Shown: piece by piece, positions 2,152-18,464 of the stretch
Numbering within the stretch: position 1 is the first letter of the stretch
Layout: every line of letters starts with the position of its first letter
Origin: a virus
IMG/VR virus record: IMGVR_UViG_3300028920_000307
Span: 1 to 20,636 of that record
DNA: 20,636 nucleotides
Strand: one strand, 5' to 3'
Notes under the pieces: model-generated
Seen by the model: only the letters and a program-made list of their open reading frames with translations
Databases searched by the model: none
Told to the model about the DNA's origin: nothing
Program-made: the position numbers and the translations under genes

Positions 2152-3350
2152 TGGCAAATTTATTTAAGAAAAATGTACGTGATTTAACGACCGACTTACT
2201 TACTTTTATGGGTTTGCCTTATGGCTTTGGCTCTGCGTCGTTGTCAAAAATGCAAGCAATGCAGTTGTCAACGGTATATCGTTGCGTCGAGGTTAAAAGC
2301 GACGCAATCGCAACGCCGACCATAATATTGCAGGACAAGACGCCGGGCGGCTGGGTTAAAAATAGCGAGGACGATTTATATAACATCCTGAATGTTGAAC
2401 CCTGCGTAACATATTCAAAAACCTGGTTAATGAAAATGTTGCAGATAAAAAAGGAATTGGAGGGTAACGGGTATGCCAGGATATACCGGGACGGTGCCGG
2501 CAACCCTACGTCAATAAGCCTTATTCTGGACCCTGTAAAAATCATTATCGACGCCGACGGCATTTTATATTACGTCATTCAGAAATACAAGCCTGAAATT
2601 ATTGAGCAGTCAGATATTATCCATCATATGAATTTCTCCTATGATGGTATTATAGGCGTTTCAACGTTAACGCATGCCAATAATGTTTTAAGCCTGGCCG
2701 ATGTAACGGATAGACATGCAAAGGGCTATTTCACAGGCGGCGGAAACGGGGCAATGATCATAAAGGTTGAAGGGAGTTTGGACGAAACAAAGGCGGCGCA
2801 AATAAAGGCCGACGTTGCGGCGGCCCTGGATGCAACCGACGGGGCGCCTAACTCGGCCCTGGTTATGGGTCCCAGGATGAGCGCCGAACCCTGGCCGGCA
2901 GTATCGGCAAGGGAGGCGCAAATGTTGGAAAGCCGCCGATTTAATATACCTGAGATATGCCGATTCTTTGGCGTATCGCCGGTAAAAGTTTTTGAAACAA
3001 GAGACAGTAAATACAATACAGTTGAGTCAATGCAGTTGGCTTTTCTTACCGATACGGCAGGGCCGGAATTTGCACGGCTGGAAAACGAATTTAATAGAAA
3101 ACTTTTTGGGCCTATGCGTCGGCGGTCCCGGCGTATAATGTTTGAAATAAGCGATCTTTTAAGGGCGGACCTTGACAGTACAAGCAATTACCGGCGCAAA
3201 ATGACCGAGATAGGGACATATACGGCCGACGACAACCGGGAATTTGTGGGGTTGCCCCGCTTTAATAAAGGGGCGTCGAACGTGCCAATGATGCCGGTTA
3301 ACTTACAACCAGTAAATTCAAAGAATTATGGAGAAAATGAAAGCGTATGA
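2151..3350 (+). CDS. Phage portal protein, HK97 family
   Basis: This 399-residue protein would form the dodecameric ring at one capsid vertex, through which DNA enters and to which the tail connects. Features seen are an STVYRCVEVKSDAIA segment near residues 40-54, typical of the start of the Phage_portal domain. A long central domain follows, with SYDGIIGVSTL (about 163-173). Toward the end, EICRFFGVSPVKVF and the AFLTDTAGPEFARLENEFNRKLF helix region resemble the stem and crown of HK97-like portals. Length is within the usual 380-450 residues. The 3' end overlaps the protease gene by 23 bp in another frame. Position between terminase and protease makes the call secure. Confidence 0.93.
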   Translation: MANLFKKNVRDLTTDLLTFMGLPYGFGSASLSKMQAMQLSTVYRCVEVKSDAIATPTIILQDKTPGGWVKNSEDDLYNILNVEPCVTYSKTWLMKMLQIKKELEGNGYARIYRDGAGNPTSISLILDPVKIIIDADGILYYVIQKYKPEIIEQSDIIHHMNFSYDGIIGVSTLTHANNVLSLADVTDRHAKGYFTGGGNGAMIIKVEGSLDETKAAQIKADVAAALDATDGAPNSALVMGPRMSAEPWPAVSAREAQMLESRRFNIPEICRFFGVSPVKVFETRDSKYNTVESMQLAFLTDTAGPEFARLENEFNRKLFGPMRRRSRRIMFEISDLLRADLDSTSNYRRKMTEIGTYTADDNREFVGLPRFNKGASNVPMMPVNLQPVNSKNYGENESV

Positions 3351-7412: not shown

Positions 7413-7447
7413 AGATAGTTTTTCTCTTGATAGTTTAGTGGTATTAG

Positions 7448-7482
7448 CCTGGCCGGTATTTAGGGGCCGGCCAGGTTTTTTT
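7448..7482 (+). terminator. Intrinsic terminator after the major tail gene
   Basis: CCTGGCCGG (7448-7456) and CCGGCCAGG (7467-7475) form a perfect 9-bp GC-rich stem with a 10-nt loop, followed directly by seven T (7476-7482). It lies 35 nt after the major tail stop and 21 nt before the chaperone start, so it likely reduces read-through into the chaperone and tape measure genes. Confidence 0.9.
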
Positions 7483-7483
7483 A

Positions 7484-11863: not shown

Positions 11864-13201
11864 ATGGAAGTATTTAACGGATCAGACTTAGTATTAGTAA
11901 TTGAAACCTCCGCAGGGAATTACAAGCCCATTGCCGGCGCAAAGCAATTTACCCTAACGGTAACCCGTACCATACGGGACGTATCGCATAAGCATGTCGG
12001 ACCGGCGCAAAAAAATGAATACGGCCGGTACAATTGGAACGTATCTATTGAAGGGCTGGTAAGCTATTATACAAGCTTTGTAAATCATGATTGGTTTTTA
12101 GAACAGCAGTTAGCAAAGAACAAGGTAAAGATAATTACCTCTTTATTGGACTATCAGACTGCCGGCAAAGCGCCCTTAGCACAGGATACGGCCCTGGCCA
12201 TAGCTGACAGCGGCGACCTGGCCGTTATTGACGCCGATACAACGTCAATACAATGTTCGGATAACCATTTCGCAACCAACAGCGTTATATCTGCTTTGAC
12301 GCCGAAGGCCAATTACGGCCAGGCGGTAATTGAGTCAGTGGAAAAGACGGCCGGCGACGACGACAACCCGACATTTTCGGTAAGCCTGAAGGGTGACGGC
12401 CAAGTATTTTCTTTCGACATAGTATCGACGGCAGGATATTCGGCGGAGTATCAGGCCGTATATAATGCCTTTATAAATAAACCTACGGCGAGCGTTGCCA
12501 ATGCTCAAAATACGTTAGTAGAGTCATTAAAGACGGCGGGGTATTGGGCAACAAGAGACTGTTTTTTTGCCCTGGCGGTACATACTGATAGCGACGATGA
12601 CAGCCTGATAGATTGGATAAGCCCAACGGGTACAAAGGCGCAAAATATTGGCGGGGCGCAAACGTGCGATTTTCTCGCATACTTCGGGTATACCTCAAAG
12701 TCGGCATATTCGGCGGTAATAGATACGCAGTTTGTGCCGTCGACTGACGGGGTTAATTATACCCTAAATGATGCCTCGTACATGATATACACAAATACCA
12801 ATACGGACGGGAATATAGTTAGTTGCGGGATTGACGACGGCAGTAATGATGCGTGGCTCTTTCCTCGTAACTCTGATTCTTGTAATTCAAGGGTGAATGA
12901 TGGAACGACAGATTTTAACGCCAATACCGATTCGTCGGGGTGTTTTATAGTCAACAGGACGGGGGCGAGTGCGACGGAAACATTTCGTAACGGCGTTTCT
13001 TTGGGTACTTCGACGAATGCGGCAACGGCATTGCCGGCATACTCTTTTCATATTGGAGGGAGAAATAATTCTGGAACGACGGCGTCGGTTGACAATCGAG
13101 AACATGCCTTTTTCTCTGCCGGCGGGTCGGTGGCCGATGCAGCCGAAGCCCTGGCAGTATACAACGCAATAAATACTTATTTAACAGCGGTACAACCTTA
13201 A
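11864..13201 (+). CDS. Tail tube paralogue with C-terminal lectin-like domain
   Basis: This 445-residue, two-part protein has residues 1-190 as a full-length paralogue of the major tail protein at 6840-7412. Shared stretches include MEVFNGSDL, LTVTRTIR, NEYGRYNW, LLDY-T-GKAPL and VEKT-GDDDNPTFS. Residues about 193-445 are new. A short helical linker (EYQAVYNAFINKPTA) leads to a beta-rich domain with AYSAVIDTQFVPSTDGVNYT, SYMIYTNTNTDG, ETFRNGVSLGTST and AYSFHIGGRN, then a final helix (AEALAVYNAINTYL). This is the pattern of a concanavalin/LamG-like carbohydrate-binding fold. It lies among tail-tip genes, so the product may replace tube subunits at the tip or decorate it. The function is inferred, while the duplication is directly visible. 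Confidence 0.8.
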   Translation: MEVFNGSDLVLVIETSAGNYKPIAGAKQFTLTVTRTIRDVSHKHVGPAQKNEYGRYNWNVSIEGLVSYYTSFVNHDWFLEQQLAKNKVKIITSLLDYQTAGKAPLAQDTALAIADSGDLAVIDADTTSIQCSDNHFATNSVISALTPKANYGQAVIESVEKTAGDDDNPTFSVSLKGDGQVFSFDIVSTAGYSAEYQAVYNAFINKPTASVANAQNTLVESLKTAGYWATRDCFFALAVHTDSDDDSLIDWISPTGTKAQNIGGAQTCDFLAYFGYTSKSAYSAVIDTQFVPSTDGVNYTLNDASYMIYTNTNTDGNIVSCGIDDGSNDAWLFPRNSDSCNSRVNDGTTDFNANTDSSGCFIVNRTGASATETFRNGVSLGTSTNAATALPAYSFHIGGRNNSGTTASVDNREHAFFSAGGSVADAAEALAVYNAINTYLTAVQP

Positions 13202-13205
13202 TAAA

Positions 13206-13553
13206 ATGGATGAATACGTACAAGGCGGTTCGATAGATGTAACCGTAAACATTAACGACGGGACCAATCCCAGGGATACGGACGACCTTTTAACAATAGA
13301 GGTGCAGATATATAATATTCATAATGGAGATACCGGCGGGACGTATGATCTTGCTGGGGGTACCCTGGCCAAGCAAGACCCGACGACCGAAGGGAATGTA
13401 TTTTGTGACATACCGCCGGCAACCTCTGACACAATGACGCCAGGGTTGTATTACTGCCAGGTTACGACAACGGAAAATGATGTATCATACGACAGCGGGG
13501 TACGTACCAGAAGGGTAACGGGACCGAAATTTATATTACTCGAAAAAGCATGA
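13206..13553 (+). CDS. Small beta-rich tail protein, possibly Ig-like/BppU N-terminal type
   Basis: This 115-residue protein has no firm family assignment. The sequence alternates polar and hydrophobic strands: GGSIDVTVNIND, LLTIEVQIYNIHNGDTGGTYDLAG, then TPGLYYCQVTTTENDVSYDSGVRTRRV. The 'PGxYYxxVTT' strand and the overall length resemble Ig-like or BppU N-terminal modules that attach receptor-binding proteins to a baseplate. It starts 4 nt after the stop of the tail tube paralogue, and its stop overlaps the next gene's ATG by 4 bp, so it is co-translated with the fibre protein. A role as an adaptor for the 696-residue protein downstream is inference. Confidence 0.6.
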   Translation: MDEYVQGGSIDVTVNINDGTNPRDTDDLLTIEVQIYNIHNGDTGGTYDLAGGTLAKQDPTTEGNVFCDIPPATSDTMTPGLYYCQVTTTENDVSYDSGVRTRRVTGPKFILLEKA

Positions 13554-17949: not shown

Positions 17950-18241
17950 CGGGTTTTATAGTGTCCATAGGGACGGCAAAAAGGAAGAGCATTATAAAAA
18001 TGGTGTTTCCTTTAAGGTATATTATTTAAATGAGAAAACGGGAATATACGAAGAGTTGCCGGCCGGTGCCGTTACTAACATAACGGTCAGGGCGCCGAAA
18101 ACGAAGCGTTGGAAAAAGATGCGTAAGAAGTTTAAAAAATGGAATGCGACGATTACCGGTTTAATTGACCCTTATGCTTTTCTTTGTGACAAGGGATACA
18201 AAGACTTTGGAGATTGTCCCAATCGTAAGCCAGAAAAATAA
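17933..18241 (+). CDS. Hypothetical basic small protein overlapping the antisense HNH gene
   Basis: This protein has 102 residues, or 100 from a second in-frame ATG at 17939. A beta-rich N-terminal half (GFYSVHRDGKKEEHYKNGVSFKVYYL…AVTNITVRA) is followed by a very basic patch (KTKRWKKMRKKFKKWN, about 75-90). The end holds two cysteines. The basic patch would suit nucleic-acid or membrane-surface binding. The last 89 bp lie opposite the 3' end of the HNH gene. A perfect 9-bp hairpin with a T-rich tail follows 43 nt after the stop (18285-18318), which fits a genuine rightward transcript ending here. The function is unknown. Confidence 0.6.
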   Translation: MNMTNNGFYSVHRDGKKEEHYKNGVSFKVYYLNEKTGIYEELPAGAVTNITVRAPKTKRWKKMRKKFKKWNATITGLIDPYAFLCDKGYKDFGDCPNRKPEK

Positions 18242-18464
18242 CTTCGTTATAATCTCTACCCTCTTCAAAGGGTCTAATATGATCAACCTCACGGGCTACC
18301 CTCGTGAGGTTTTTCTTTGCGCATAATTCACAAATGGGATTAGACCGGATCTTTGCCCGGCGTAACTTTTGCCAACGTGAACTATTATAGATATTTAGGG
18401 CCGTAGCTTTACGGGTTGTTTTTATCCTGGGGGGGTGTTTTACCTTTAGATTAATCTTTGCCAT
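18153..18464 (-). CDS. HNH endonuclease
   Basis: This 103-residue nuclease has a zinc-stapled HNH fold. C45 and C48 (CELC) and C89 and C92 (CIPC) should hold the structural zinc. The catalytic motif has D61-H62 in REVDHIRP, N84 in WDNLQSLC, and H93/H97 in CHKEKH. In many HK97-like phages an HNH protein of this size beside the terminase genes is needed for cos cleavage. Here it lies far from the terminase, on the other strand and at the end of the leftward operon. Its ATG overlaps the stop of the lipoprotein gene (TAATG). Its 3' end overlaps a rightward gene by 89 bp, and it contains a terminator for the other strand. Confidence 0.9.
   Translation of the reverse strand: MAKINLKVKHPPRIKTTRKATALNIYNSSRWQKLRRAKIRSNPICELCAKKNLTRVAREVDHIRPFEEGRDYNEVIFLAYDWDNLQSLCIPCHKEKHKGQLNR
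18285..18318 (+). terminator. Rightward intrinsic terminator inside the antisense HNH gene
   Basis: AACCTCACG (18285-18293) pairs perfectly with CGTGAGGTT (18303-18311) around a 9-nt loop, followed by TTTCTTT on the plus strand. Read leftward, the downstream flank is not T-rich, so the terminator should act only on rightward transcripts, those of the 17094-18241 cassette. On the minus strand the same bases encode HNH residues from about 52 to 60, just before the DH motif. Confidence 0.7.

Follow-up and report, generated by a model that had tools for sequence, protein, structure and literature searches.

The DNA analysed here is a single virus record of 20,636 bases, taken in its entirety and referred to below as the window. 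The window carries the usual siphophage gene order of terminase, portal, protease, capsid, connectors, tail terminator, major tail protein (MTP), tape measure, hub and lysis amidase, with a second and longer MTP-like gene directly behind the hub gene (Table 1). Besides the family matches of the tape measure product, an iterative profile ties it to the relatives' syntenic tape measure genes. For the small protein encoded next downstream of the longer gene, searches of PHROGs and Pfam gave no family match above cut-off, and the 696-residue protein that follows matched no sequence in Pfam or the PDB; by eye, the N-terminal part of this large protein is beta-rich and LamG-like, and its C-terminal part contains a TIRFDDG motif like that of polysaccharide deacetylases. 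From about 18.1 kb onward the genes appear to lie on the minus strand, among them a small open reading frame (18153-18464) that resembles an HNH endonuclease (CELCAKK...DHIRPFEEG...LQSLCIPCHKEKH).

Table 1. Positions in the window of the tail genes, domains and hairpin discussed in the text
Feature	Position	Strand	Support
Parent major tail protein (MTP), 190 aa	6840..7412	+	PF06199 Phage_tail_2; phrog_1407; between tail terminator and tape measure
Intrinsic-terminator-like hairpin and T-run directly 3' of MTP gene	7446..7483	+	12-bp stem, -23.9 kcal/mol, z -4.0
Tape measure protein, 516 aa	8125..9675	+	weak tape-measure matches in PHROGs and Pfam
Baseplate hub-type protein, 725 aa	9675..11852	+	phrog_30639 (unknown function), E 3.5e-29; name 'hub' from gene order
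MTP paralogue, tube-ring domain (residues 1-190)	11864..12433	+	57% identity to MTP; PF06199, 26.1 bits
C-terminal concanavalin-A-like jelly roll (residues 189-443) of paralogue	12428..13192	+	leave-one-out profile; model; VIA-align
Small protein, next gene downstream of paralogue	13206..13553	+	ORF only
Large putative tail or adhesion protein, 696 aa	13550..15640	+	ORF; weak phrog_21759 match (E 0.05) only

The longer MTP-like gene, at 11864-13201, is open for 445 codons, has its own start and forms an open reading frame separate from the MTP gene, from which it lies 4451 bases away. Over the first 190 residues the two products align by BLASTP without gaps, with 108 identities (57%), 76% positives and an E value of 5e-78; in a shuffle control, the best of 10,000 shuffles gave 26 identities over 190 positions, with a mean of 12. 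The initial annotation of this DNA had called the gene a separate, full paralogue of the MTP rather than a frameshift product, and had placed it after the hub gene at about 4.5 kb from the parent copy. All of this is borne out here, and exact counts agree with its hand count of 64 identities among the first 110 residues and with its 23 identical leading bases. At the nucleotide level the pair is 60% identical (63, 75 and 41% at codon positions 1, 2 and 3), with dN of 0.39 by NG86 and saturated dS, so that the duplication is old and both copies have been kept under purifying selection; identity so much lower at third than at second positions also argues against a recent assembly repeat.

Both products match PF06199 above the cut-off of 23.8 bits, the MTP with 36.2 bits and the paralogue less strongly, and the MTP matches the major tail protein family phrog_1407 with an E value of 2.8e-17. 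Residues 1-190 of the paralogue were modelled as a monomer with AlphaFold2 on the basis of 26 related MTPs, at moderate confidence (pLDDT 68). The best Foldseek match of this model is the monocin tail tube (E 1.8e-7), VIA-align superposes it on chain 6v8i_AB of phage 80alpha (Z 12.1, rmsd 3.3, 132 residues) ahead of the GTA, monocin, lambda and SPP1 tubes, and its fold matches are uniformly tube proteins, from monocin, lambda, 80alpha, NF5, GTA and SPP1. The tube-ring fold on which the initial annotation had made its reading depend was thus obtained. The ring domain and the C-terminal domain were modelled from separate alignments, a joint MAFFT alignment of relatives having been misaligned, and the ring part of the full-length model, which was poor (pLDDT about 40), was left out of the analysis. 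Of the 46 family-conserved positions, 24 are retained in the paralogue and 21 in the MTP, so the paralogue shows no sign of decay, and the residues common to both proteins are most frequent in the predicted long strands (37/51, vs 71/139 elsewhere; p 0.009). Because its fold matches are to tubes, its conserved positions are kept and its identity to the MTP is concentrated in the long strands, the ring domain of the paralogue looks assembly-competent, as judged from the monomer model and from conservation.

The extension begins near residue 188, the point at which the MTP is ended by its stop codon, and is in this sense a clean fusion. When a profile was made of the 250-residue domains of other phages, with the paralogue left out, it matched residues 189-443 at an i-E value of 1.6e-51; what had initially been described as about 250 residues of a beta-rich, lectin-like extension is therefore a 255-residue domain, with a fold that is modelled as concanavalin-A-like. 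The domain family was collected via proteins of Sinorhizobium, Mesorhizobium, Gordonia and Microcystis phages together with a motif scan of viral contigs, and comprises 62 carrier open reading frames. Only the one in the window also holds a tube domain; elsewhere the domain forms the C-terminus of many unrelated phage proteins or stands nearly alone. The family includes the mobile concanavalin-A-like C-terminus of phrog_26223 and domains in proteins of Sinorhizobium phages phiM12 and phiN3, of Microcystis phage Mwe-JY13 and of Gordonia phage Murp, with 26-30% identity to the domain of the paralogue. On these sequence relationships, the added domain is a member of a mobile phage domain family. 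At two other loci (L128:3467-5857 and L116:12229-14454), two adjacent genes each end in this same domain.

The model of the added domain is very confident, with pLDDT above 90 for most residues. VIA-align matches it to domain 4 of the arabinanase AbnA (5ho0; Z 17.1, rmsd 3.0, 188 residues), the structure of which was solved with an arabino-oligosaccharide, and then to lectin-like domains of clostridial neurotoxins. Foldseek matches include sialidase lectin domains, CBM40 and a cyanophage tailspike, and matches in a viral library are named concanavalin A-like or LamG-like. As modelled, the domain is a concanavalin-A-like jelly roll. Searched in isolation against Pfam, it gave no lectin, LamG or CBM family match up to E 1, and we therefore use 'lectin-like' for the fold only. 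The concanavalin-A-like fold is also used by enzymes and by protein-binding and structural domains, and sugar binding by this domain is a model-based hypothesis. Toxicity, as might be read from the matches to clostridial neurotoxin binding domains, was rejected, as these matches reflect the common jelly roll only, at 6-10% identity.

We gathered 81 related loci via the capsid protein and scanned them for MTP-like open reading frames. These relatives keep the order MTP, tape measure, hub, and in several a second MTP lies directly behind the first: L054 (159 + 277 aa), L058 (157 + 342 aa), L064-L067 (148 + 335 aa) and L008 (136 + 252 aa), four lineages in which the duplicate carries a C-terminal addition, and L062/L063 (181 + 149 aa), in which the first copy has a Pro/Glu-rich tail without a folded domain. 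The added parts of these duplicates gave no match to the profile of the window's C-terminal domain. By eye, the C-terminal part of the tandem paralogue at L058:12477-13469 is like leucine-rich BspA-type repeats and unrelated to the window's domain. A maximum-likelihood tree places every duplicate next to its own parent as sister (five of six pairs starred; L064 pair 88/82), and the branch of the addition-carrying copy is as long as or longer than that of its partner. MTP duplication thus looks recurrent and lineage-specific in this tree, a pattern that gene conversion could also give. No MTP was found behind the hub in any of about 30 relative loci that extend at least 600 bases past it (some of them near-duplicates), so the post-hub copy is so far unique to the window; the relatives whose post-hub gene was read (L011, L013, L053 and L148) hold fibre-like genes in that slot. 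Portal and hub scans for phages with an MTP copy behind the hub found none. In the search for the same arrangement in related phages that the initial annotation had proposed, MTP duplicates with C-terminal additions thus recur in tandem, and none stands behind the hub in the loci that reach past it.

Single-protein scans of viral contigs gave no close relatives of either the paralogue or the MTP, and tblastn of the MTP against cultured phages gave no match; three of the tandem paralogues, searched against cultured phages, matched only one unannotated faecal scaffold. In a 395-genome sample of the phylum of a Bacteroides congonensis match, matches were found in four genomes, none of which had a second copy in tandem or close by.

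The hairpin just 3' of the MTP stop codon, which the initial annotation does not mention and which bears on stoichiometry, has a G+C-rich stem and a T-run and is the only one of its kind within 100 nt after 18 gene ends in the window. Among 21 single-MTP relatives, 17 have an equivalent hairpin behind the MTP, a few of these loci being near-duplicates of each other; among 625 random stretches taken from these loci, 2 have one. The position of the hairpin is conserved, its sequence is not. In the tandem lineages L054, L058 and L064 the hairpin follows the second copy, with none between the copies; L008 and L062 have no MTP hairpin by the same criterion. In the window the long copy lies 4.4 kb behind the hairpin, after the tape measure and hub genes. 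This predicted terminator seems to close an MTP-rich transcript and to leave the tape measure, hub and later genes to read-through, which would put both copies of the three tandem lineages on the rich side and the long copy of the window on the poor side. Since this copy is placed past the hairpin, among the low-copy tail genes, we predict the paralogue to be a minor component, probably made in smaller amounts than the MTP if the hairpin acts as it looks. Dosage would be set differently in the three tandem lineages, in which the long copy is upstream of the hairpin.

Decorated and partly decorated tail tubes are already known. The tube proteins of lambda (gpV), T5 (pb6), YSD1 and JBD30 carry C-terminal Ig-like domains encoded by a single tube gene and so present on every subunit; like the paralogue, they have an outward-facing beta domain after the tube-ring domain, whereas in the window the main MTP is undecorated and the domain is borne by the paralogue alone. 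In SPP1, one gene yields gp17.1 and, by frameshift, gp17.1* at a ratio of about 3:1, the longer form bearing an FN3 domain (PMC8718954). The window likewise encodes two tube proteins with a common ring domain, one of them with a C-terminal beta domain, and that of gp17.1* is thought to touch cell-wall carbohydrates; unlike SPP1, it does so from two genes 4.4 kb apart that are 57% identical, with a larger jelly roll of another fold. In the 936-group lactococcal phages, the MTP extension TpeX, with a putative carbohydrate-binding module, is added by programmed frameshift behind an Ig-type domain (PMC6669499). There too a long MTP form bears a large domain, which is a putative carbohydrate-binding module on the tail, but the window uses a separate paralogue without an Ig domain. 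The common ring domain with one extended form is thus present in the window as in the SPP1 and 936-group systems and the frameshift origin is not; the pair may work like such a system but by origin is not one. The tandem relatives share with the window a lineage-specific MTP duplicate, and differ in that their copy lies directly behind the MTP, before the hairpin in three lineages, and carries unrelated additions. In the openly licensed literature we found no description of a paralogue with a concanavalin-A-like domain, of recurrent MTP duplications or of the hairpin arrangement, and literature searches for duplicated or paralogous MTPs, with partial coverage of openly licensed papers, found nothing.

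Two other identities for the gene were dropped. Neck-passage-structure proteins start with a BppU-like domain rather than an MTP (PMC6669499), and an assignment as the distal tail protein Dit does not suit a gene that follows the hub and shares 57% identity with the MTP.

The reading that we favour, and to which we give about an even chance of being right, is that the paralogue is a minor tail-tube subunit that displays a putative adhesion domain. Residues 1-190 would form a normal tube-ring domain that joins or stacks on ordinary MTP rings, as their sequence and predicted fold suggest. C-terminal domains of known MTPs stand outside the tube, and the jelly roll would therefore be expected to face the tail exterior, where it may bind host-surface glycans weakly but at many points before adsorption becomes irreversible, and so aid reversible adsorption. 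Stoichiometry would probably be set by gene position relative to the hairpin, with naked MTP in excess, and the result would be a mixed tail of the same kind as in SPP1 and the 936 group, reached through a separate paralogue instead of a frameshift. A wider generalization is possible, though we advance it tentatively: that related siphophages repeatedly duplicate the tube gene and load one copy with differing C-terminal domains, and that the position of this copy before or after the conserved terminator sets the number of decorated subunits, a gene-dosage route to heteromeric tubes that is an alternative to frameshifting.

The main rival is that the paralogue forms a single adhesive ring at the tail tip, which we consider rather unlikely. 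Tube-fold rings at tail tips are common in general (Dit, lambda gpM, T4 gp48 and gp54), the gene comes immediately after the hub, where four relatives have fibre-like genes, and beyond the hairpin with low-copy tail genes, and no gene for a separate distal tail protein was seen in the window between tape measure and hub. The roughly 30 loci that reach past the hub, however, have the same gene order without a second MTP there, so that such a ring would not be a required part of these tails; and tip rings are usually far diverged, whereas this copy has diverged by only 43% and keeps the family's conserved tube positions.

A tail protein whose C-terminal domain binds a protein, or serves as structural or protective decoration without binding glycans, strikes us as improbable. 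The occurrence of the domain family at the C-terminus of many unrelated phage proteins would fit a generic decoration module, and no Pfam lectin or CBM family matches it; yet its nearest solved folds are largely glycan-related (AbnA domain 4, sialidase lectin domains, CBM40, phage tailspike), shared fold in itself showing no function. That the paralogue lies outside the virion, or that the locus is a functionless duplicate or an assembly chimera, we hold to be very improbable. The gene is known from a single virus record of 20.6 kb, and a close relative with the same gene was not found in the viral contig scans, but the 445-codon frame is open, synonymous change is saturated while non-synonymous change is limited, GC and GC3 are similar to those of the neighbouring, tightly packed genes, and comparable duplicates occur in other phages.

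Should the paralogue indeed be a minor decorated subunit, it would represent a second genetic route, besides frameshifting, to a partly decorated tail, one that the relatives suggest has arisen several times in one uncultured phage group. With parent and decorated subunit on separate genes, subunit mixing and the role of decoration in adsorption become cleanly testable, and the conserved hairpin offers a specific hypothesis, open to checking, for the control of tube stoichiometry.

Short MTP open reading frames with an in-frame stop in five relatives (L015, L019, L029, L034 and L012) were considered as split or readthrough MTPs and rejected as such. In four of them (L015, L019, L029 and L034) TAG occurs in frame at varied positions in the MTP gene, and in L012 a TGA at 3066-3068 stands at a conserved Trp position; together these suggest stop-codon recoding in relatives of the window phage.
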